From an uncultured Collinsella sp. (GTDB lineage: Bacteria; Actinomycetota; Coriobacteriia; Coriobacteriales; Coriobacteriaceae), in the NCBI GenBank assembly GCA_902475825.1, contig CABSBA010000032.1, positions 1 through 11,575 of the forward strand: 11,575 bases of DNA, written 5' to 3'. The notes under the pieces were generated by a model. It was given only the letters and a program-made list of their open reading frames with translations. It did no database searches and was not told where the DNA came from. Position numbers and translations under genes: made by a program. Numbering within the stretch: position 1 is the first letter of the stretch; every line of letters begins with the position of its first letter. This document shows, piece after piece, positions 1-11,130 of the stretch.

Positions 1-960
1 AGTCGTGGAGTCCCAAGCGAGCGTTCGCCCATCAAACGGCGATGTAATTGAGTTGAGGAACCAGCCCCATGCACCCGTACCATAAACCGCAGAGATGCCA
101 CTCTGCTTGAAGGCAAGTTCAGTCGCATCAGCCACGGTCGCGGTATCAACCATGGTGTAGTCAGCTGCAGGCGCCCACGTCTGAACATTACCGCCGCTGT
201 CAACACCGATAATCTGCAGGGAAGCCTTTGTCTGCCCAGGCATAGTACCGTCAGAGCCGTAGACCCAGGAAACCTTGTCACCGGCCTTGAGCGTGTAGTT
301 ACCGGCGCCCACATTTGCGAGCTTGCCGTTGACAAAGAACTGCCAGTAATTCCAAGTGGAAGCGTCAACCTTTTCGGTCGAGAGCTTTACGTCCTCATCA
401 AACGGAGAGGTGAGCGAGTTGAGGTACCAGCCGTAGGAGCCCGTCCCGGTGTCGGCGCCAATGCCAGCCTGCTTGAACACCTGCTCAGAGAGCTCAGCCG
501 CGGTCGAGCCCTCCTTCACTTGGATAGTCGTGGGCTGAGCCCAGGTCTGCTGGCTACCGTCCTTAGCCTGGCCAACAACCTCGCAGCTCACGGAGAGCTG
601 GTCGGTGGGCGCCGGGTCGCCGTACTTGGAGTAGCACCAGACGACCGAGTCGCCGGCCTCGAGCACGTAGCCGCCCGCACCAACCGATGCGGCCGTGCCG
701 TTGATGAAGAGCTGCCAGTACGCTCCGGTCTGCGAATCATAGCCAAGCGTTCGGCCCGCGTCGACAGGCGAGGTGATGGAATTGAGGTACCAGCCCCAGG
801 TTCCCATGCCGTAATCGGCGGTGAGGCCGTGCTTCTTGAAGAGCGCCTCAGAGAGGTCGGCGGCGGTAGACCCCGTTTTTAACGTGTACGGCTCGGCGGC
901 GGTCCAGGTCTGCTGGTTGCCATCGGCATCGATGCCGATAACCGAGCATGTTGCTGTAAC
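1..960 (-). repeat. Tandem DUF4430 domain repeats inside the surface protein gene
   Basis: Three tandem copies, about 120 codons (360 bp) apart, encode residues about 1418-1532, 1538-1656 and 1661 to the window edge. Each begins with a beta strand and a V/I-G motif followed by QTW, and has the motif GWYLNS-I/L-TSP (starting at residues 1473, 1594 and 1716; the third reads GWFLN). Copies one and two then show YWQ-L/F-F-I/V-NG and VGAG-G/N-Y (Tyr1498 and Tyr1622), followed by L-x-A-G-D. This is the DUF4430 / transcobalamin-like C-terminal pattern (Pfam PF14478). The third copy is cut by the window edge, so the true number is unknown. Confidence 0.8.
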
Positions 961-3900
961 CTCAGGAGCGACCTGACCACTCGTTCCAAGCACGGTCACT
1001 GTCGCAGAGACGTCCTGGTTGGCGAGCTTTGCGTACGTGGCATTATCCGGATAGCGCTTGGCGTAACGCGCGTACTTCTCACTGGAAAGGCGAGAAGTAA
1101 TGGTGACCTTGGTGTTGTACTCAGGCTGCGTGACAAGAAGGTTCTCCGCAGAGACGACACCAGTGTCGCTCGACTTGAAGAGGCGCCACTGCTGGCCGCT
1201 CATGTCGTCGTAGCCCTCGAGCTCAACCGGGACGATGCCCGAGCCCGCAGCGTCGGTAGACGCCTTGTCGTAGCTCCACGCGAGCTTACCATCGGCGTCG
1301 AGATACGCCTTCTGGAAGGCATGCATATTTGCGGTCACGCCGGCGGCGTCCTGGCCGTCGAGGATGGCCTCGGCGTAGCCCGCCTTGGCGGCCTCCATGA
1401 GCTTAAGCTCATTGTCGAGGTCGGCCTGATCCTGCGGCGCAACCGTGAAGTCAAGCGTCTTTGTGGCAGTGACCTCAGCGTTGTTCTTATCCGTAACCGT
1501 GCAGGTGAGTTTCGTGGAGACGGCGCTCTTACCGGCCTCGGGACGGAAGACCGTGCCCTTATAGCCGTTGAAGGTCACGTCATCGGTGCTCGCGGAGTAC
1601 TCGACCTTATAGTATTTTCCGTCGACGCCGAGCGTGCTCGTGCGCGGCATCTGGAGGTCATCGGTCAGGCCGTCCTTATTGGCAACCGCATCGGTACCGG
1701 AGTACTTGATGTTGTTGTAAATAAACGCCGCGTCGACCTTCTCCTGCAGCGCCTTCTTGTCGGCAGCAACCTTCTCGGGGTCGCCCTTGACGGTCACGGT
1801 GAAGTCGTGCGTGCCCTCGACATCGCTCGGGCCGCCCTTCACAAACGAAACCGTCGCGGTCAGCGTAACAGCGCGATCGCTCGAGGCGCGCGTCACCTTG
1901 CCGGTGTAATCGCTCCAGCCATAGCCGGACGGCCAAATGGCGTCGCCGTCGGAGCTCTTCCAGCTAACCTCGAACTTGCTCTTGGAGCCCGCGCGGTACG
2001 GAAGCGTGAGGTTGGACGTAACGGACTCGGCCGAATCGCCCGCAGCGTAACCGATGGCAACCTGCTCGGCGGCATCGTCGAGCATCTGCTGCACACGAGC
2101 CTCGTCCCAAGCCACCTGAACCGTCTTGTTGGGCTGGTAATACTCGGTCTTCTCGCCATCGCGCGACAGTTCAAACGCCACATCGGCGCTACGCAGACCG
2201 TCGATGTTGTAACCGGTGTAGTCGTTGGGGTCAATGAAGAAGAACGTTACATCGCCATTGGTCTTGTCCTGCGCATCGGAGATGCCGACCGTGGCCTTGG
2301 CGTCCTCAGCCTTAAAGAGCACGCCGCCCTCGGAGACCTTAACGTCAACGTCGGTAAATCCCAGATCAGCAAGCTGTGCCTTCAGCGCATCATTGACGTT
2401 GCCGCCCTTGGCGCTGTAGTCAACAACAATCTGCTTGTTAGCATCGTTGAGCTTTTGGACTGCAGCCTCGAGCGAACCCGCGGCGATAACCTTGTTGGTG
2501 GAGACGAGCTCGACCGTCGAGCTTCCGCTCGTGGTGACAGCCTTCAGATACTTGCCAGCAGCAGATGCCGAGACCGTCGCCTCGGCGCCCGACATATCGG
2601 ACAGCAGCGTCCAGTCGGCCGCGGGAGCCTTCGCGTCGTCGGCCGCATACCAAGCAACAGTCGCCTGACCGGTGACGTCGATACCATTGGTGGCCGAACC
2701 GTCGGCGCGCTTGGCCTGCGCCGTCGCCTTAACGCTATCGCCCGCGACGAGATGGGTCGAATCGCTATTGATCTGCGGCGCAGTGGTCACACGCAGCAGG
2801 TTATACTCCCCCGCCGCGGTAACGCTATCGGGCGAAACCCACTCAACGGTGTTATCGAGCGCGCTCGCGGTGACCTTGATCTTCTTGCCGACAAGCGCAT
2901 CCGTAATAGTCAGGCTGCCATCAGTCGTATCGACGCCGTCGGTGAGCTCGGTCCAATCGGTACCGTTCTCGCTCGCGTACCACGCCATGGTGAGGTCGGC
3001 ATCATCGGGCACGTCCTTGGTCGAGCCCGACCAAGGACCCGGAACCTGCACGCTCGGTGTGATCTTTGAACCCACGCTCAGCGTAACGTTCTTATCGGCA
3101 AGCTCAATGCCCGCCAGCTTGTACTGGCCCTTAAGCGTCACGGGGCCAAGCGGAGCAACAGACTGCGTGCCGCCGGAGGAGCTCTTCTTCTGCGTGCTGA
3201 AAACGGTATTTTCGCTCGTCACCTTTACGAGCAGATACTTGCCGGCATAGGCGGCGTCAACGGTATAGGTGGCCTCGGTAGCACCGGGGATATCGGTGTA
3301 AGCGGAGTCGAAGCTCGAGCTACTATTTGCATACTGCCACTGGTAGGTCACATTATCGGTGCGGTCGATATAGCTGTACTTCGAGCCGTCCTTTTTGCGC
3401 ACCTTGGTCTTGAGCTTATCGCCCACGTGCACGCCGTTGGTGGCAGGAGAGCCCTCAAACTGCACGTCGTAAAGCTCAACCTGACCCGCAACCGAGACAG
3501 GACCTGCCGCATAGTAGGGCTTCTCCTCGCCATAGCCGCCATTGGCCTTAGCCACGACGTAGTAGCCCTTAAGGGCGGCGGTCACCGTCAGGGTGTTACC
3601 GGTCTCACCCTCGATAGGCGTGTTGCACGAGCTCGCGTATTTCGCGGTGCCCTTATACCACTGCCACGTGACATGCGAATCGGTGGTAACGTCGGTGGAA
3701 CCCGCCTTGGCGGTCGCCGTAATCGTGGAGCCAACCTCGACTTTGCCCGAAGTCGGGCTCATAGTCACGCTCGAGACATTAATTGAACCGGCGGCTGCAA
3801 CGAGAGCGCCCGTCGAGTTGGTCGTGCTCGAAGAGCCGATCTTCGAAGACACCTTGCACTTGAGGTACTTGCCGCCCAAAGCATCGGTTAGCTCGAGGGT

Positions 3901-5211
3901 CTCACCCGTGGCACCCGCAATGTCGATATACTTGCCACTCTTGGTGCCAGAGCACTGCCACTGATAGTTGAGCTTGCTCGCGTCGATAAACGTCGAGGCG
4001 CCCTTCTCCTTGGCGCGAGCCTGGGCGGTATCGCCAACCGCGAACACGGAGTTGTTGGTCTTGGGATTGATGAGCGAAACCGCGTAGACGTCCACCGCAC
4101 CGGCCTGTTTGACCTTGTTGGAGGTGGTCTTGCTCACCGTATTTACGCCAGCAGTAGCCTCGACTCTGATGTACTTGCCCTCGAGGTCATCGGTCACCGT
4201 GAGGGAAGCGCCCGTCTCGCCCTCGATCTTGGTAAAGCCCGAGTACTGCGAGGTAGATGCGGACCAGGTGTAGGTGACCTTGGCGTCGGAGCCCGCGGGG
4301 CTCGACCAATCCTTGTACGGCGTCGCCATCAGAGTATCGCCTATGCTCGGCGCGTCGCTACTCAGCTTGACGCTGTAAAGCTCCATTTGGCCGGCGCCCA
4401 GCACGGGGCCGGGGATGCTGTTAGGATTAATGCCCGAGCCGTACGAAACAGAGGGGCCGTAGTGGTCCTTGCCGTCTGCCGTCACCTTGCAGATGAAGTA
4501 TTTGCCCTCCATCGCGTCAGTGATGGTGAGCGACTGCTCGTGGCCTACGACCTCGGTGTAATCGGCGGCGTCACTGCTGGCCTTGACCGTGCCGGCGAGC
4601 CAGGTATAGGTCCAGGCGCCGGGGTTAGCGACCGATTTGGTCTCGGTCGTAGGGTCGCCCCAGTAGTCCTCGGTCTCGACCTCATCGTACATATTGGCCC
4701 AGAGCGTATCACCCACATTGAGCGCGCCGGACTTCGTCGAATACGAGTTGTCCTTATCCTTGGCGTCCTGGATATAGACCTTAGCCTCGCTCGAAAGCGT
4801 TGTGGCGGACGCGGCGGCAACGGCGTTCTTCTGCTCCGAAGCAGCAGGCATCGCAGCAGAGCTCTCGGACTCAGTCGCGTTGTCTGCGGCGGTGTCAGCA
4901 CTATTCGCGGAACTCGCAGTTGCGCCCTGATCTGCGTCGGCGCCATCGTCAGCAGCGCTCGCCGGCGCACTGTTCGCGCCGGCATCGGCGGCAGTGCCAT
5001 CGTCGGCCGCCGCCCCCTCGCCGCCCGTCGCAGCCTGAGTCACGGACTCGGCGATGCCCTCGGCGCCTTCGGCCCACAGCTGTGCCGGCGTGGTGCCAAA
5101 AGCCATGGCAAAAGCCAGGAACGCCACCAGACCGCGCTTGGCTACGCCACGGGCAATCGCTCCATGGCGACGCCACGAGGCGCGCTGGCACTCGTCCTCA
5201 AACATATCCAT
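1..5211 (-). CDS. Giant secreted surface protein with Ig-like repeats and C-terminal DUF4430 (transcobalamin-like) repeats, partial
   Basis: The frame is open from 5211 to the window edge (1737 codons, no stop seen); the C-terminus and any cell-wall anchor lie outside. Residues 1-47 look like a signal peptide: basic region ending K25-R26, hydrophobic core 27-38, likely cleavage after A47. Residues 52-140 are an Ala/Asp/Ser-rich linker. Seven Ig-like repeats follow, starting near 142, 276, 371, 475, 576, 695 and 801, each with a VGD-T/S-L start, a YQW or YTW core and an end like LTDALGGKYLKCKV. Residues 913-1030 form an unassigned alpha/beta stretch, 1037-1409 about three atrophied-Ig-like domains, and 1418 onward DUF4430 repeats. 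GGAG lies 4 nt before M1 (10 nt before M3), so either Met could start. A cobalamin riboswitch precedes the gene. DUF4430 resembles the cobalamin-facing C-terminal domain of transcobalamin, so I infer a surface corrinoid-binding role; a generic adhesin is the alternative. Confidence 0.88.
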   Translation of the reverse strand, partial: MDMFEDECQRASWRRHGAIARGVAKRGLVAFLAFAMAFGTTPAQLWAEGAEGIAESVTQAATGGEGAAADDGTAADAGANSAPASAADDGADADQGATASSANSADTAADNATESESSAAMPAASEQKNAVAAASATTLSSEAKVYIQDAKDKDNSYSTKSGALNVGDTLWANMYDEVETEDYWGDPTTETKSVANPGAWTYTWLAGTVKASSDAADYTEVVGHEQSLTITDAMEGKYFICKVTADGKDHYGPSVSYGSGINPNSIPGPVLGAGQMELYSVKLSSDAPSIGDTLMATPYKDWSSPAGSDAKVTYTWSASTSQYSGFTKIEGETGASLTVTDDLEGKYIRVEATAGVNTVSKTTSNKVKQAGAVDVYAVSLINPKTNNSVFAVGDTAQARAKEKGASTFIDASKLNYQWQCSGTKSGKYIDIAGATGETLELTDALGGKYLKCKVSSKIGSSSTTNSTGALVAAAGSINVSSVTMSPTSGKVEVGSTITATAKAGSTDVTTDSHVTWQWYKGTAKYASSCNTPIEGETGNTLTVTAALKGYYVVAKANGGYGEEKPYYAAGPVSVAGQVELYDVQFEGSPATNGVHVGDKLKTKVRKKDGSKYSYIDRTDNVTYQWQYANSSSSFDSAYTDIPGATEATYTVDAAYAGKYLLVKVTSENTVFSTQKKSSSGGTQSVAPLGPVTLKGQYKLAGIELADKNVTLSVGSKITPSVQVPGPWSGSTKDVPDDADLTMAWYASENGTDWTELTDGVDTTDGSLTITDALVGKKIKVTASALDNTVEWVSPDSVTAAGEYNLLRVTTAPQINSDSTHLVAGDSVKATAQAKRADGSATNGIDVTGQATVAWYAADDAKAPAADWTLLSDMSGAEATVSASAAGKYLKAVTTSGSSTVELVSTNKVIAAGSLEAAVQKLNDANKQIVVDYSAKGGNVNDALKAQLADLGFTDVDVKVSEGGVLFKAEDAKATVGISDAQDKTNGDVTFFFIDPNDYTGYNIDGLRSADVAFELSRDGEKTEYYQPNKTVQVAWDEARVQQMLDDAAEQVAIGYAAGDSAESVTSNLTLPYRAGSKSKFEVSWKSSDGDAIWPSGYGWSDYTGKVTRASSDRAVTLTATVSFVKGGPSDVEGTHDFTVTVKGDPEKVAADKKALQEKVDAAFIYNNIKYSGTDAVANKDGLTDDLQMPRTSTLGVDGKYYKVEYSASTDDVTFNGYKGTVFRPEAGKSAVSTKLTCTVTDKNNAEVTATKTLDFTVAPQDQADLDNELKLMEAAKAGYAEAILDGQDAAGVTANMHAFQKAYLDADGKLAWSYDKASTDAAGSGIVPVELEGYDDMSGQQWRLFKSSDTGVVSAENLLVTQPEYNTKVTITSRLSSEKYARYAKRYPDNATYAKLANQDVSATVTVLGTSGQVAPEVTATCSVIGIDADGNQQTWTAAEPYTLKTGSTAADLSEALFKKHGLTADYGMGTWGWYLNSITSPVDAGRTLGYDSQTGAYWQLFINGTAASVGAGGYVLEAGDSVVWCYSKYGDPAPTDQLSVSCEVVGQAKDGSQQTWAQPTTIQVKEGSTAAELSEQVFKQAGIGADTGTGSYGWYLNSLTSPFDEDVKLSTEKVDASTWNYWQFFVNGKLANVGAGNYTLKAGDKVSWVYGSDGTMPGQTKASLQIIGVDSGGNVQTWAPAADYTMVDTATVADATELAFKQSGISAVYGTGAWGWFLNSITSPFDGRTLAWDSTT
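985..2103 (-). other. Atrophied bacterial Ig-like (aBig) domain block in the surface protein
   Basis: Residues about 1037-1142, 1146-1258 and 1261-1409 read as three related beta-rich modules. The first carries SNLTLP, then W-K-S-S-D-G, G-K-V-T-R and VTLTATV, which is the usual aBig order. The third has W-R-L-F-K-S-S followed by TQPEYNTKVTITSRLSS. Modules of this kind are often found next to DUF4430 domains in Gram-positive surface proteins and probably act as a stalk. Domain borders are approximate. Confidence 0.6.
2479..4788 (-). repeat. Seven Ig-like repeats in the surface protein
   Basis: Residues 142-911 hold seven diverged repeats of about 95-130 residues. Each has a G-D/S-T/K opening strand, an aromatic core W in a Y-x-W context, and a closing G-K-Y/K-x-x-V-x-x strand. 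The sequence between cores varies strongly, so these are old, diverged repeats rather than recent DNA duplications. They most likely form a rod that carries the C-terminal domains away from, or along, the cell surface. Confidence 0.7.
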
Positions 5212-5354
5212 TTGTCTCCTACTGTCTGCACTTGGAGCATTGCCCAGCGGCTGCCCCACGTCATCGCGCATATTGCGCCCGAGTACCCCCATCGGGGTCC
5301 CCCTTCCCTCCAGAGCCCAACGCGTACCGGCGGCATGCGCCGCGGCCGCGTGCA
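5212..5354 (-). promoter_or_regulatory. Expression platform / leader between riboswitch and surface-protein start
   Basis: No hairpin followed by a U-run is visible here, so a classical terminator is not supported. Small hairpins are possible at 5298-5286 (ACCCC/GGGGT) and 5278-5266 (GCGCA/TGCGC). TGCTCC at 5239-5234 can pair with GGAG-A-CA at 5219-5213, which would bury the Shine-Dalgarno sequence. This favours control of translation, but it is a hand-drawn fold. Confidence 0.4.
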
Positions 5355-5527
5355 AGATGGGAGGCGATCCGACTTAACCTTACCGACCCGGGCGCGCCGT
5401 CCGATCTGCGACGCAACCATCCCGGGCCAAGAGGAATTACGGTTACTGGTACAGCCGGGGACTTGCACCCCGATTCTCCCAAACGCGCAGGAAAACCGCG
5501 CATTCGTGCGTCTCCGCACCACCATCT
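5355..5527 (-). ncRNA. Cobalamin (B12) riboswitch leading the surface-protein gene
   Basis: Read on the minus strand, the leader contains the ordered elements of a cobalamin riboswitch. P1 is AGATGG (5527-5522) pairing with CCATCT (5360-5355). A 9-bp hairpin with one bulge lies at about 5504-5481, then GGGAGAATC (5480-5472), the short stem-loop GGGGTGCAAGTCCCC (5471-5457), and the B12-box-like core GCTGTACCAGTAACCGTAA (5455-5437), close to the usual GCTG-n-CCCGCAACTGTAA. A 6-bp CCCGGG/CCCGGG stem (5426-5421 with 5392-5387) is followed by AAGTCGGATCGCC (5375-5363), matching the usual 3' segment AGTC-GA-ACC-GCC. About 130 nt lie between the aptamer and the start codon. The element is expected to lower expression of the surface protein when adenosylcobalamin or another corrinoid is plentiful. 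Class and ligand preference cannot be read by eye. Confidence 0.88.
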
Positions 5528-5536
5528 AGGCCATCG

Positions 5537-5565
5537 ATTATTACTGTCGATATGGTATCACGCAA
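5537..5565 (-). promoter_or_regulatory. Predicted sigma-70-type promoter of the riboswitch / surface protein transcript
   Basis: TTGCGT (5565-5560) and AATAAT (5542-5537) are separated by 17 nt, matching 3/6 and 5/6 of the consensus boxes. The expected transcription start near 5530 falls right at the beginning of the riboswitch P1 stem, which supports the call. Confidence 0.6.
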
Positions 5566-5591
5566 AAGGGCCCCGCACACAGGCGAAGCCC
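5564..5591 (-). terminator. Intrinsic terminator after the AarF/UbiB gene
   Basis: GGGCTTCGC (5591-5583) pairs with GCGGGGCCC (5576-5568) over 9 bp with two G-U pairs, around a 6-nt loop, followed by TTTT (5567-5564). It lies about 90 nt after the stop of the kinase gene. Its U-run overlaps the -35 box of the next promoter, so the two transcription units are tightly packed. Confidence 0.72.
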
Positions 5592-5678
5592 AAGGTAAAA
5601 GCTATGGTTTGCGATAGAAAAGGGTGAGGATGGAATGCCGAGCAAAAGGATCCGTCTTCCTCTGATCCCGCGAAATCG

Positions 5679-7442
5679 TTACCGCTTGCCGCCGTGACTG
5701 TTGCGCCAGATCTCGCGACCCAGCATCAGCGCCAGCACCAGCGCGCTCACGTAGCCCATAAAGCCAATGACCGGGATACCGAACACAACCGGCTCGATGC
5801 GTGCGTAGTACACCACCGATGAGCCGATAAACAGACCGGCGATCACAATTGCCATCGACATGCGGTCGATAATTCCACCCAGCTGTCGCAGCGCCTTATC
5901 GCTGCTCATGATCTGCGTGTTTACCTTAAGCTGGCCGCGCGTGAGCATGCGCGACGCCAAGCCCAGATACTCGGCCGCCTCGAGCGAGCCTTTTGCCGCG
6001 CGATAGCTGCTCGCGGCAAGATCGCGCCCCATTTCGCGGACGCGCGCATAGGCGCTCTTCTCGTTTTTGATGTGCGCCTGGATAATCTGGATCATGTTGA
6101 CGTTGGGCATATACTCGGTCAGTAGGCCCTCGAGCGTCACCATGCCGCGGGCGAACATCGTCACCACACTCGGCAGCTCAACGTCGTTCTTGCGCGCCAG
6201 GTTTAGCAGCGAGGTCAAAAACTCGCCGATATCCAGGTCCTTAAGATCAAGACCCGCAAAGTCGGCGACGATAAAGTCCAAGTCGGACAAAAAGGCCGAA
6301 TGGTCGAGCTCGGCGGAATCGCCGCGCGTCACGGCAAAGCGCATGAGCGAGTCCTTGAGCTTGGGCACGTCGCCCTCGGCCACGGCGAAAATCATGTCCT
6401 TGACGATACCGCGGTCGTGACTCGACATGCGCCCGACCATGCCCAGGTCGATAAAGTAGACGATGCCGTCCTTGAGGATGATGTTTCCCGCATGCGGGTC
6501 GGCATGAAAAAAGCCGTCATCGAGCACCTGCGTCGAATAGTCCTCGACAATCGCCGAGCCGATCTTTTCCAGGTCATAACCCTCGGGTCCTTGGAGCCGG
6601 CGATGGAAAGCAGGACGGCCGTCAATGTAGTCCATGACCACGACGTGTTCGGTGCAAAGGTCCAAGTAGGATTTGGGACACGACACACCATGCACGCTCT
6701 TATGGAAGTCATAGAAATCGTTGAGGTTTTTGGCCTCGGCCAAAAAGTTGGTCTCCTCGCGAAACGAGGCCCACAGCTCCTCGACGACGGCGTGTAAGTC
6801 AACAAACTGGTCGGTGTTGACGAACTTGGAAACGATGCGCACCACCGAACGGATGATGTCGATATCCTGCGCCATGACCTGTTGCGCGCCGGGGCGCTGC
6901 ACCTTAACGGCCACGTCCTCGCCCGTCACCAGGCGGGCGCGGTGTACCTGCGCGAGCGACGCGCTACCGAGCGGGTTGGGGTCGATCGCGTCGAACATCT
7001 GCCCCAGGCGCTGACCGTATTCCTCTTCCAGACAGCGGAGCACTACCTCATACGGCACCGGGTCTACGTCGGAGCGCAGGCGACGCAGCTCGTCGCAAAA
7101 CCGCTGCGGCAAGATCTCGGACCGGTTGGCCAGAATCTGCCCCATCTTGACGAACATGGGGCCAAGCTCTTCGAGCAGGCGGCGCAGGCGTACCGGCGTA
7201 AGGTTATCCCATACGCGGTACTTCTTGATCAGGCGAACGATCTGCCCAATGCGTTCGCGGCGGCCTGCCGGCGTGAGCTGGTATTCCTCGTCCGGCGCCA
7301 TCGCGTCGGGCTCCTCAGGAACCATATCGACAGCACGCGGCTTCTTGCGAGCGCCCGAGACGGCGGCATCGACCTCATCGACAACCGCCGCCTCGTCACC
7401 CAAGGGATCTAGATTGTTGTAGTCGGTGGTGGAATCTGCCAT
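5679..7442 (-). CDS. AarF/UbiB (ABC1) family atypical protein kinase-like protein
   Basis: The 587-residue protein has the family marks in order: KMGQ at 99-102 (the KxGQ motif), the nucleotide loop GSASLAQVH at 159-167, AVKVQRP with Lys180, the catalytic loop HADPHAGN at 313-320, and DLG at 332-334 in place of DFG. Two hydrophobic helices at about 529-548 and 552-575 end the protein, typical of membrane-bound bacterial members. Residues 1-60 are acidic and low in order. In proteobacteria UbiB supports ubiquinone synthesis; the role in Gram-positive anaerobes is unsettled and may involve quinone or lipid handling. It starts 8 nt after the stop of the phasin-like gene and lacks a clear Shine-Dalgarno sequence, so translation is probably coupled. 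I do not assign the name ubiB because the function is not shown. Confidence 0.93.
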   Translation of the reverse strand: MADSTTDYNNLDPLGDEAAVVDEVDAAVSGARKKPRAVDMVPEEPDAMAPDEEYQLTPAGRRERIGQIVRLIKKYRVWDNLTPVRLRRLLEELGPMFVKMGQILANRSEILPQRFCDELRRLRSDVDPVPYEVVLRCLEEEYGQRLGQMFDAIDPNPLGSASLAQVHRARLVTGEDVAVKVQRPGAQQVMAQDIDIIRSVVRIVSKFVNTDQFVDLHAVVEELWASFREETNFLAEAKNLNDFYDFHKSVHGVSCPKSYLDLCTEHVVVMDYIDGRPAFHRRLQGPEGYDLEKIGSAIVEDYSTQVLDDGFFHADPHAGNIILKDGIVYFIDLGMVGRMSSHDRGIVKDMIFAVAEGDVPKLKDSLMRFAVTRGDSAELDHSAFLSDLDFIVADFAGLDLKDLDIGEFLTSLLNLARKNDVELPSVVTMFARGMVTLEGLLTEYMPNVNMIQIIQAHIKNEKSAYARVREMGRDLAASSYRAAKGSLEAAEYLGLASRMLTRGQLKVNTQIMSSDKALRQLGGIIDRMSMAIVIAGLFIGSSVVYYARIEPVVFGIPVIGFMGYVSALVLALMLGREIWRNSHGGKR

Positions 7443-8015: not shown

Positions 8016-9539
8016 TTACCTTACGTTATCGTTCATCGCGAAGGAATTCTTCATGGCACAGCTCGTGGTGTAGAGCACCTTGCCCAACAGGGCGTCGGTC
8101 TCCACGCGCACGAGCTCGGCAAAGGCCTCGTTGGCGCGGGCGAGCTCGGCAGGCACCTCGGCCTCGGGCAGTGCGGCTACGACAGCGTCAACGTCGTGAA
8201 TCTGCTTGTGGCCCATGCCGCCGACCTTCTCCTGATAATCCTCGACCGCGCGACCGCACTCATGGAAGCGAACATCGGCCAAGGCACCGATCAGGCGATT
8301 TGCCCAATAGAAATTCTCGGACGTCACGCGAGCCTGCGTGTCGGCATAGTACTTGGGCATGGTCTCGACATTGGCGTACAGCGGTACGAGCGCGTTAAAC
8401 GAGTTGGAGCCAAACGCCATCCACTGCACGGCGCGATACGCCGGCTGCGCATAGGGGCGCAGCTGCAGCACGGCAAGCTGGCTGTTGCGGTTGATGCCGA
8501 TGGGACGATAGGCGCCGCGCGTGGCGGGCGTGCCCTTGCTGCCGTAGCAGTCGTACTCCGTGCCCTGGTAGTGGCTCGAAAGCACGTACTTGATGTCCTC
8601 GATGGTCACCTTGCGTTCGGGCACGCGGCTCCAGGGGATGTCATCGCTTTCGGGCGTGTAGTCGGCGTCGGGACCGTCCCACACATCGCTGGGGTTGAGG
8701 CAGCGCTGCATGTACCAGGCGCGCGGCGTGTTGTAGACGTGGTCGCTGTCGCTGTGCGAGCCAAAGGCCTCGCGCGGGTTAAAGACCGCGGCGGGACCGT
8801 CGCCCTCGACGCCCAGCGTCAGGTCCAGATGCCACTCGGCCATCCAGGAGCGCAGGTCGGCGGAGCACATGTGGTCGACCTGAGCGCCCTCGGCGTCATC
8901 CAGGTCAAAGCTATCGATACCCAGCTGGTTAGGCATGGTCACATAGGCGTCATCGGGCACGCGCTTGGCGATCCAGTGGTGGCCGCCGATGGTCTCGAGC
9001 CACCAGATCTCGTCCACGTCACTAAAGGCGATGCCGTTGTTCTCGTAGGTGCCGTAGCGCTCGAGCAGGTCGCCCAGGATGCGCACGCCGTCGCGGGCGG
9101 ACTTGGCGTACGGCAGCACCAGGGTCACCATATCCTCCTCGCCCAAACCACCGGGCTGCGCCGGAACATAGCCGTCCTCGCCTTCGTTACCCTTGGCGGG
9201 CACATAGTCCACGAGCGGATCGGCGCCGCGGACGCGCTCGTTGGTGGTGAGCGTCTCGGTTGCGGACATGCCAACATTGAGCTCATTGAAGCCGGCCTCG
9301 GCCCAAATGCCGTGACCCGGAACAACGTCGGGGACGCTCGTGTAACGCATGGGGTTGTCGGGCAGCTCAACGGTCAGGTGGCTCAGGACGCTCGTGTAGA
9401 CACGCGGCTGCTCGTCGGGGTGCACCACGCGCATGCGCTTGGGCTCAAACACCCCGTTGGACGAGTCCTCATTGCGGGCAACCAGCGTCGAGCCGTCGTA
9501 GCTCGCGTTCTTACCAACCAAAATCGTTGTGCACGGCAT
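8016..9539 (-). CDS. C69 family dipeptidase (PepD type, N-terminal nucleophile hydrolase)
   Basis: The 507-residue product begins MPCTTILVGKNASYDGSTLV. The CTTILVGK-ASYDGST motif followed by ARNEDS is the hallmark of the C69 dipeptidases, in which the Cys (residue 3 here) becomes the N-terminal nucleophile after trimming. Later family features are AEAGFNELNVGMSATET, a WWLETIGGHHW segment and VPDDAYVTMPNQ. I place the start at 9539, not at the upstream ATG at 9545, because AAGGAGG (9552-9546) directly abuts that ATG but sits 6 nt before the 9539 ATG. No signal peptide is seen, so it probably acts in the cytoplasm on dipeptides. It stands alone, with 88 nt before it holding only a weak promoter-like TACACT, and a hairpin after it. 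Confidence 0.94.
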   Translation of the reverse strand: MPCTTILVGKNASYDGSTLVARNEDSSNGVFEPKRMRVVHPDEQPRVYTSVLSHLTVELPDNPMRYTSVPDVVPGHGIWAEAGFNELNVGMSATETLTTNERVRGADPLVDYVPAKGNEGEDGYVPAQPGGLGEEDMVTLVLPYAKSARDGVRILGDLLERYGTYENNGIAFSDVDEIWWLETIGGHHWIAKRVPDDAYVTMPNQLGIDSFDLDDAEGAQVDHMCSADLRSWMAEWHLDLTLGVEGDGPAAVFNPREAFGSHSDSDHVYNTPRAWYMQRCLNPSDVWDGPDADYTPESDDIPWSRVPERKVTIEDIKYVLSSHYQGTEYDCYGSKGTPATRGAYRPIGINRNSQLAVLQLRPYAQPAYRAVQWMAFGSNSFNALVPLYANVETMPKYYADTQARVTSENFYWANRLIGALADVRFHECGRAVEDYQEKVGGMGHKQIHDVDAVVAALPEAEVPAELARANEAFAELVRVETDALLGKVLYTTSCAMKNSFAMNDNVR

Positions 9540-9545
9540 GCGCAT

Positions 9546-9640: not shown

Positions 9641-10495
9641 CTATTTCGATGCGCGCTCCGCCGCCTCGATCACGTGCTTGGCGAGAATCGCCGTCGTTAC
9701 AGCCCCCACGCCGCCCGGCACGGGAGTAATTGCGCCAACGATCAGCTCCGCAGCATCAAAATCGACATCGCCGACCAGCTTGCCAGCGGCCTCGTCCCAG
9801 TTAATGCCCACATCGATGATCGTCTGGCCCTCGCGAACCGCATCCGCGCCAATCGTGCGTGCGCGTCCAACGGCCGCAACCACAATATCAGCCGCACGGC
9901 ACTCGGCAGCCAAGTCGCGCGTATGCGTATGGCACATCGTCACCGTGGCATTGCGAGCCGTAAGCATGGCGGCAACGGGACGGCCAATCACGAGCGACCG
10001 ACCGACGACCGCGACCTTGGCCCCATCCAGCTCAACACCGTAATGGTCCAGCAATGCCAACACGGCCTCGGCCGTGCAAGGAGCAAAGCCCTCGCCTCGC
10101 CCCGAAAGCGTGGTGAGCAGCGAGGCCGGCGTCATGGAGTCAACATCTTTGGCGGGCTCGAGTGCCGCGGCAACTGTATCCTCGTCAAGGCCGGCGGGCA
10201 GCGGACGAAACATCAGGCAGCCATGAACAGCCGAATCGGTATTAATGCCCTCAATAGCCGCCAGCAGCTCATCCTGCGAAACATCGGCGGGAAGCAAAAC
10301 GCGGCGAGCCTCAATGCCGACCTTCTCGCAGCGCTTGAGGGCGCCGCGCTCGTAGGACAGGTCGTCCTCGCGCTCGCCCACACGCACGATGGCCAGCGTC
10401 GGCACGATGCCCTGTTCGCGCAGGGCGGCGCAACGAGCGGCAAGCTCCTCGGTCAAAGCGCGGGCAACGGGAGCACCCTTGAGCAGCTCTGCCAT
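9641..10495 (-). CDS. folD: FolD-type methylenetetrahydrofolate dehydrogenase, cyclohydrolase site lost
   Basis: The 284-residue length and order of motifs match FolD, which oxidises 5,10-methylene-THF to methenyl-THF with NAD(P) and normally also hydrolyses it to 10-formyl-THF. Seen here: the catalytic-domain segment SYERGALKRCEKVGI (47-61), RPLPAGLD (97-104), KDVDSMTP (116-123), the nucleotide-binding VVGRSLVIGRP (163-173), and ITPVPGGVGAVTT (256-268). Compared with E. coli FolD (YVASKRKACEEVGF), Tyr50 is kept as Tyr48 but catalytic Lys54 is Ala52. In the substrate loop the usual VQLPLP reads MFRPLP, so Gln98 is Phe95. KDVDG is KDVDS. The enzyme is therefore probably a dehydrogenase without cyclohydrolase activity, that step being supplied by the FchA-type enzyme encoded 2 nt upstream. 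Its Shine-Dalgarno sequence (GAGGGG, 10507-10502) lies in the end of fchA. Confidence 0.93.
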   Translation of the reverse strand: MAELLKGAPVARALTEELAARCAALREQGIVPTLAIVRVGEREDDLSYERGALKRCEKVGIEARRVLLPADVSQDELLAAIEGINTDSAVHGCLMFRPLPAGLDEDTVAAALEPAKDVDSMTPASLLTTLSGRGEGFAPCTAEAVLALLDHYGVELDGAKVAVVGRSLVIGRPVAAMLTARNATVTMCHTHTRDLAAECRAADIVVAAVGRARTIGADAVREGQTIIDVGINWDEAAGKLVGDVDFDAAELIVGAITPVPGGVGAVTTAILAKHVIEAAERASK

Positions 10496-10497
10496 GG

Positions 10498-11130
10498 CTA
10501 TCCCCTCTTCCTTGCGGCGTCAGCAGCACGGCGCGCCAGTGCATCGGCGCGCGGCAGCCACGTATCTAGTAGTTCATCGCACGCCGCCTCGAGTTCCTCG
10601 GCGCGCGCCCGGTCTTTCATAGATGTGGTGTTGGCAAAGAGCGTCAGGCTCGCGCCTTGCATGGCGGCGCGGCAGAACACGGCGCCGCATGCCACGTCGG
10701 ACAGCAACTGGCGCGAACCCTTGTCGGCCATGTCCTCGAGCAGCGCCAGCGCGCGCCCGCAGGCATCCATGATCCGGTACGGCGGCATGGCCGCCACGCG
10801 CAACGCGTCCTGAATCGCCGCGGGTCGAGCCGGGTCCTCGCGCGGAATGCCGTACGACGCGGACACCTGGCCGTATGCACGAACATCCTCGGCAACCAGA
10901 CCCACTAGTTCCTGCGCCAACTCGTCTGCCTGGGCAAATGCACGCGTCAGATCGTCCGCCCGATCGCTAAGCGCGGGATTGGTCGCCCCGTAGCGAGCGA
11001 CCATCCCGCAAAGCGAGGCGCCCAGCGCGCCCACAAAGGCGCTCGCGCTACCGCCGCCGGGAACCGGCTCGCGCGCGGCCAGCGCCTCGGCAAACCCACG
11101 GCAGGTCTTGTCCATCATCTCTTGGCTCAT
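10498..11130 (-). CDS. fchA: Methenyl-THF cyclohydrolase / formimino-THF cyclodeaminase (FTCD_C family)
   Basis: The 210-residue, mostly helical protein carries the family signature PVPGGGSASAFVGALGASLC (residues 22-41) and a second conserved helix DVACGAVFCRAAMQGASL. Its length fits stand-alone cyclodeaminase/cyclohydrolase proteins. Members either release ammonia from 5-formimino-THF during histidine breakdown or hydrolyse 5,10-methenyl-THF to 10-formyl-THF. No histidine-breakdown gene is nearby, whereas a FolD lacking its cyclohydrolase residues follows 2 nt later, so cyclohydrolase is the better guess. The start at 11130 has AAGGTG about 7 nt before it; the internal ATGATG at residues 5-6 has weaker ribosome-binding context. 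Confidence 0.9.
   Translation of the reverse strand: MSQEMMDKTCRGFAEALAAREPVPGGGSASAFVGALGASLCGMVARYGATNPALSDRADDLTRAFAQADELAQELVGLVAEDVRAYGQVSASYGIPREDPARPAAIQDALRVAAMPPYRIMDACGRALALLEDMADKGSRQLLSDVACGAVFCRAAMQGASLTLFANTTSMKDRARAEELEAACDELLDTWLPRADALARRAADAARKRG

Follow-up and report, generated by a model that had tools for sequence, protein, structure and literature searches.

The stretch analysed here, called the window throughout, comprises positions 1 to 11,575 of contig CABSBA010000032.1 (assembly GCA_902475825.1) from an uncultured Collinsella species. Its left part carries, on the minus strand, the 5' portion of a gene for a giant secreted protein with DUF4430 domains, and this gene is headed by a leader with the features of a cobalamin riboswitch (Table 1). 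We propose that gene and leader belong to a corrinoid-capture system of Collinsella that is repressed by vitamin B12; we infer the binding and the regulation from sequence, and give this reading a probability of about 0.8. What computation shows is riboswitch homology with covariation, the protein domains, the gene neighbourhoods and the similarity of a transporter component to CbrT, all described below.

The open frame of the giant gene spans positions 1-5355 and leaves the window at its left edge. It holds 1764 codons when counted from the ATG at 5292 and 1737 residues from the ATG at 5211, in agreement with the sequence-only reading, which had called a secreted protein of more than 1737 residues. 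The ATG at 5292 is most likely the start, because relatives keep the order switch, CUGG/Shine-Dalgarno, ATG; the ATG at 5211 is likewise preceded by a good ribosome site. DUF4430 (PF14478) scores 88.6 bits in the window against a curated cut-off of 23.8, with two stretches over the cut-off and a third cut by the window edge; full-length relatives have three. The nearest relative compared, a metagenome-assembled genome of an uncultured Collinsella (locus L004, genome G004), is 95.8% identical to the window over 11.4 kb. One full-length relative, P0066, has 2375 residues and runs from a signal peptide through Ig-like repeats, aBig_2, three DUF4430 domains, a beta-propeller and a Flg_new repeat to a C-terminal hydrophobic helix that ends in KRR, with no evident LPXTG motif; its signal peptide, repeats and membrane anchor were judged by eye from the sequence. 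Five of its Ig-like repeats have a G-K/Y-Y motif in common, and the propeller best matches eight-bladed proteins of the YxaL/BamB type. Thus the three or more DUF4430 domains that had been read as the end of the protein are found in relatives, but the propeller, Flg_new repeat and membrane anchor come after them, and the picture of a DUF4430 array at the tip of a stalk has to be given up.

An Rfam scan at gathering scores returned nothing in the window or in loci L001-L006. A permissive scan of positions 5000-5760 placed AdoCbl-II (RF01689) at 5382-5492 on the minus strand with 30.5 bits (E 4.9e-5), short of the gathering score of 36.5 bits, and because of this shortfall we claim the leader, from its sequence, as a divergent member of the cobalamin riboswitch clan CL00101 and not as an Rfam-certified RF01689. 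Another genus genome has, before its orthologous giant gene, a leader (L038) that does reach the gathering score, at 38.7 bits, while two further orthologous leaders (L039, L040) stay under it at about 29.5 bits. Six more leaders (L127, L129, L136, L137, L138, L139) pass RF01689 with 38.8-42.7 bits; these were found with R1, a covariance model that we built from nine loci with a short calibration, so that its E-values are rough. Helix P1 (5527-5522 with 5360-5355) closes the aptamer exactly at the bounds that the sequence-only reading had given it, 5355-5527.

Could this leader be a degenerate cobalamin riboswitch that no longer functions, ahead of a constitutively expressed gene? Its score under the Rfam threshold would fit that view, as would its whole-leader folding free energy, which is ordinary (z -0.44) and is not used here as evidence. 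We nevertheless regard such decay as highly improbable, given compensatory changes and an invariant core. Nine leaders aligned with MAFFT gave 98.2% paired cells, with two-sided changes in 12 of the 45 pairs against a shuffled mean of 5.0; neither figure was reached in any of 500 shuffles. A measure of further pair types was less striking, being reached by 16 of 500 shuffles. When the partner strand was slid, pairing fell to 35-42%. The structure tested was derived from the very alignment used for covariation, which favours the structure. Since ortholog L038 passes the Rfam threshold, the pairs covary, and CCAG, CUGG and the -10 box are kept, we take the riboswitch to be real.

The leader is laid out, to judge by its sequence, as would be expected of a translational OFF switch. 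A CCAG in loop L5 and a CUGG that overlaps the Shine-Dalgarno sequence are complementary and are both invariant in all 29 homologous leaders, and because they never vary they offer no covariation, leaving their pairing as a proposal. These 29 leaders, many of them close kin, are what remained after 3 of 32 search-string matches without the L5 element were dropped. As to the promoter that the sequence-only reading had placed just before the riboswitch, a sigma-70 scan of the window found none, but the extended -10 element of Table 1 recurs 41-43 nucleotides ahead of the first hairpin in 27 of the 29 leaders.

Table 1. Features of the giant-gene locus, in window positions.
Feature	Position	Strand	Basis or remark
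Giant surface protein gene, 5' part	1..5292	-	Runs off left window edge; alternative start ATG 5211
DUF4430 domain 3	1..228	-	Truncated by window edge; complete in L004
DUF4430 domain 2	229..597	-	Pfam match
DUF4430 domain 1	598..969	-	Pfam match
aBig_2 (atrophied bacterial Ig) domain, PF20578	1786..2079	-	Pfam match
Ig-like repeat stalk, ~100 residues per repeat	2478..4794	-	Named by appearance; no Pfam match here
Signal-peptide hydrophobic core and Ala-rich cleavage region	5076..5139	-	Predicted from sequence
CUGG (5313-5310) overlapping Shine-Dalgarno GGAGGGAAGGGGG, proposed L13/expression platform	5299..5313	-	CUGG downstream in 29/29 leaders; function proposed
Cobalamin-riboswitch aptamer	5355..5527	-	Permissive Rfam scan, model R1, covariation
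L5 tetranucleotide CCAG, proposed kissing-loop strand	5446..5449	-	In 29/29 homologous leaders; pairing proposed
Extended -10 promoter element TGATACCAT	5552..5560	-	Pattern TGNTANN[AT]T
Terminator-like hairpin with T-run behind upstream ABC1/UbiB-type gene	5568..5591	-	1 found, shuffles mean 0.7; weak alone

The association of this riboswitch with DUF4430 extends across the genus. R1 matches 42 of 43 genus genomes, 7 of which supplied rows to the model, and in 40 of the 42 the best match is followed within 10 kb by a DUF4430 domain in the same orientation (one best R1 match and one or two DUF4430 places being taken per genome). These counts are uncorrected for kinship and come from genomes that may be incomplete. 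The two exceptions are G003, where the contig breaks, and G034, where a match of 43 bits precedes a toroid gene. PF14478 itself occurs in 42 of the 43, as does the S component of an energy-coupling factor (ECF) transporter (query: the S domain of L071), and the same single genome, G040, is without R1, PF14478 and the S component; it has the corrin-ring enzyme CbiD.

Among 246 genomes of the class, R1 was found in 81 and DUF4430 in 145, with both in 80 of the 81 (Fisher p 6e-23, uncorrected for kinship); R1 searches over 40 genomes used stricter filters and may have missed weak matches. DUF4430 places for the class were the listed matches plus ten from the genus Pfam search, and at least 77 of the 90 class R1 matches have a same-strand DUF4430 within 10 kb downstream. 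For three of the 13 unlinked matches (G091:C41, G223:C1:720923 and G210) Pfam adds a DUF4430. Two others, in G003 and G211, lie at or near contig ends, one in G195 (L129) leads into an ECF system, one in G212:C12 (L134) into a double ABC ATPase, a further one is in G171, and for G245:C25:33781 the nearest DUF4430 among those listed is 17.8 kb away. Three R1-type riboswitches share a strand of that last contig over less than 30 kb (20827-50042), together with at least two DUF4430 domains, perhaps a B12 regulon cluster. Elsewhere, R1 riboswitches precede surface proteins of about 1240 residues with GLUG motifs and one DUF4430 each (L127 2264-6013, L128 337-4047), and in G183 an R1-type match of 27.8 bits, also one of the 13, stands upstream of the gene for RACo, which activates corrinoid iron-sulphur proteins (L133 353-1696). 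An AdoCbl riboswitch in G231:C16 (L131 5712-5858) scores 51.1 bits, over the RF01482 score.

Relatives also point to partners for the giant protein. Directly downstream of the giant gene, L004 encodes a 289-residue protein (17126-17995) made up of an N-terminal membrane anchor, a long linker and a single DUF4430 domain. In five genus genomes (G020, G026, G035, G041, G042) a match to the ECF S component follows the riboswitch at a distance of 3.0-3.2 kb and in the same orientation, 7 S-component places having been taken into these distances. Locus L071 has the order riboswitch, DUF4430 lipoprotein, EcfT-like protein, and a frame that combines two ABC ATPase domains with an S-like part; the S-like part scores under the Pfam cut-offs, and the EcfT-like protein, which had no Pfam or NCBIfam match, is named by appearance. 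In L072 CbiO/CbiQ-type genes likewise belong to the switch operon, while no such genes are in the giant-gene operon of L004. The S component of G004 scores over the DUF6580 cut-off and matches PDB entry 6fnp at E 2.9e-6; it lies beside a double ABC ATPase, and the T component, without a Pfam match, is EcfT-like by appearance. Entry 6FNP is described as the vitamin B12 transporter ECF-CbrT (PMC5997447). The likely hand-over partners are the membrane-anchored DUF4430 protein and a CbrT-like ECF system elsewhere, both of them seen in relatives. The sequence-only reading had sought such a partner left of the window or elsewhere; in relatives the candidate DUF4430 protein lies on the left (in L004) and the candidate ECF system elsewhere.

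These neighbourhoods bear on the view that the giant protein is a cell-surface adhesin, or a scaffold in the cell wall, with DUF4430 domains that bind to sugars or to partner proteins, the switch merely sensing corrinoid as a sign of location in the gut. Ig-like, aBig_2, Flg_new and propeller domains are frequent in adhesins, and the giant protein has all four; SLBB relatives in ComEA and in polysaccharide export are, in the account that covers them, predicted sugar binders (PMC1796856). Yet the same switch heads operons of a DUF4430 lipoprotein with ECF genes, the S component resembles CbrT, and DUF4430 shares operons with the toroid discussed next. We consider the adhesin view improbable.

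By sequence comparison DUF4430 is homologous to the beta domain of the transcobalamin/intrinsic factor family, as the sequence-only reading had stated of the C-terminal domain of these carriers. The DUF4430 profile matched the haptocorrin beta domain at E 2.2e-4, intrinsic factor at E 0.11 and transcobalamin-2 at E 0.41, and a single-sequence PDB search with the DUF4430-propeller region returned haptocorrin only, at E 0.7. The nearest relative has, in addition, a second B12 riboswitch, placed before another giant surface protein. This one bears an alpha/alpha toroid, a fold of the class to which the other half of transcobalamin belongs. Separate genes encode toroid and DUF4430. Other members of the class have a single operon made up of the riboswitch, a toroid gene and a DUF4430 gene; linkage was counted from the DUF4430 places listed, with G178 and G203, which do have DUF4430, counted as unlinked. 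G068 had no DUF4430 match. In L141 (6375-13529, G231:C13) a secreted protein of 2384 residues unites a CbiK cobaltochelatase domain (229.5 bits) with a toroid and with lectin repeats of the ricin type, apparently as an extracellular cobalt chelatase; DUF4430 and ECF-type genes follow it.

The target might also be not cobalamin itself but other corrinoids, precursors or cobalt species, such as cobinamide, cobamides and cobalt tetrapyrroles. The joining of toroid and cobaltochelatase-type domain in the L141 class protein would fit this, and so would the presence of CbiD in 16 of the 42 genus genomes that carry the system, since intermediates could be of use there; CbrT-family and BtuFCD transporters have moreover been reported to import cobinamide too (PMC6593275). 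On the other side, G001-G005 are without CbiD, and the S component is similar to that of a B12 transporter. Such a shift of target seems to us rather unlikely.

In a B12-repressed capture system of this kind, high intracellular cobalamin would be bound by the leader RNA, the L5 CCAG would pair with the CUGG at the Shine-Dalgarno sequence, and translation would be blocked. With B12 scarce, the giant anchored protein would be made, with its Ig stalk, three DUF4430 heads and beta-propeller, and the small membrane-anchored DUF4430 protein would be made from the same operon. Both proteins would bind extracellular corrinoid and hand it to the CbrT-like ECF transporter. In some species, among them the window's nearest relative, the second gene under a B12 riboswitch would add the giant toroid surface protein, and toroid and DUF4430, on different chains, would probably clamp one corrinoid between them. 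This last step leads to a tentative idea, to which we give slightly less than even odds, of a split intrinsic factor: toroid and DUF4430 sit on separate membrane-anchored stalk proteins with their own B12 riboswitches, a corrinoid joins them, and it then passes via the membrane-proximal DUF4430 protein to the CbrT-like ECF transporter.

Besides the Rfam shortfall of the focal leader, the occurrence of CbiD and the kinship left uncorrected in the class test, several observations weigh against the account of a B12-repressed capture system. First, as to the toroid, it was found in only 4 of the 43 genus genomes and so cannot be a general requirement of the DUF4430 system, and G002 and G005 gave no toroid match. 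A structure model of the toroid had no Foldseek match at E <=0.001, the best being transcobalamin at 0.029, and its alignments took in haptocorrin but also the toroids of complement/alpha-2-macroglobulin and squalene cyclase; its sequence profile retrieved cyclases and not transcobalamins, and a single-sequence PDB search with it returned nothing. Second, the DUF4430 profile gives an equally good match (E 2.8e-4) to 3u7z, whose depositors entered it as a putative metal-binding protein. Third, the ECF genes of G004 stand alone, with no R1 match nearby. Fourth, the MetH activation domain PF02965 had no match over cut-off in the 43 genus genomes and sub-cut-off matches in 20. Finally, three more of the 13 unlinked riboswitch matches do not fit: the one in G075 (L132) scores 25 bits and falls within an AIRS-type gene, probably by chance; in a brief look at 5.7 kb of frames behind the G231:C16 riboswitch no B12 gene was recognised; and in G153, which alone among the R1-positive class genomes had no DUF4430 match, the riboswitch precedes a PQQ-type propeller protein with S-layer domains (L130 364-2322).

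Two further features of the surroundings may be recorded. Both giant genes with a riboswitch have a C69 dipeptidase gene upstream (window 8016-9545; L035 9602-11806), probably by coincidence, and at 9641-11130 of the window FolD adjoins FTCD_C (formiminotransferase-cyclodeaminase), which places one-carbon metabolism near the locus.

Surface capture of B12 in Gram-positive gut bacteria is little known, and where one account touches on these bacteria it names only homologues of btuFCD, unaccompanied by btuB, and a single ECF transporter (PMC6977713). The system proposed here would be a concrete machine for this task in a common human gut genus, and it is relevant to B12 competition in the gut. 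With a riboswitch model found in 42 of 43 genomes, it ties the uncharacterised family DUF4430 to B12; it also suggests that bacteria possess, as separate parts, a counterpart of the two-domain B12 carriers of animals. Among the titles and abstract openings listed from the open-access literature we found no report of a cobalamin riboswitch before DUF4430 genes, nor of a split toroid/DUF4430 pair. Riboswitch control and the split halves thus appear to be new, while surface scavenging of B12 by transcobalamin-like domains was proposed in 2007.

That earlier proposal concerned the transcobalamin-like SLBB domains on the surface of Gram-positive bacteria, which Burroughs et al. 2007 suggested to scavenge B12 (PMC1796856). 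As described there, SLBB is fused to Ig, FIVAR and propeller domains and, in one chain, to the toroid, and CbiO/CbiQ genes in SLBB operons are general but not universal; the word riboswitch is absent from the main text. The giant protein of Collinsella is likewise secreted and anchored, as far as its signal peptide and anchor can be judged from sequence, and combines DUF4430/SLBB with Ig and propeller domains. A second, paralogous SLBB/DUF4430 protein is encoded in the operon, as in L004, and related operons hold ECF-type CbiO/CbiQ genes, in Collinsella those of five genus genomes and not the giant-gene operon of L004. The differences are that toroid and SLBB share one chain in the proteins described by Burroughs et al. 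and are on separate chains here, with a cobalamin riboswitch in front. The G004 S component, with its adjacent ECF module, resembles that of the ECF-CbrT system (PMC5997447); unlike that system, the one in Collinsella is linked to extracellular DUF4430 proteins, and in five genus genomes one riboswitch serves both.

The focal leader has the same core and fold as RF01689 AdoCbl-II, but it differs by an insertion of 37 nucleotides in one arm, where the model has 4, and by its conserved CUGG/Shine-Dalgarno platform. Transcobalamin, haptocorrin and intrinsic factor carry toroid and beta domain on one chain, whereas the Collinsella halves are on separate proteins; the giant protein also differs from these animal carriers in having three beta domains and a propeller on one chain, and the bacterial toroid is not specifically transcobalamin-like by sequence.

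To our knowledge the Collinsella lineage has no outer membrane, unlike Bacteroides. A BtuG-like propeller was considered for the giant protein and finds no support in the matches listed, BtuG not being among them; the best of these matches are of the eight-bladed YxaL/BamB type. The sequence-only reading had drawn a parallel to BtuG in logic and not in homology, and in this it stands, although the general idea had already been put forward for the SLBB proteins (PMC1796856). What is shared with BtuG, as it is presented for Bacteroides (PMC6977713), is the logic of capturing B12 at the surface for a transporter, and both proteins contain a beta-propeller.

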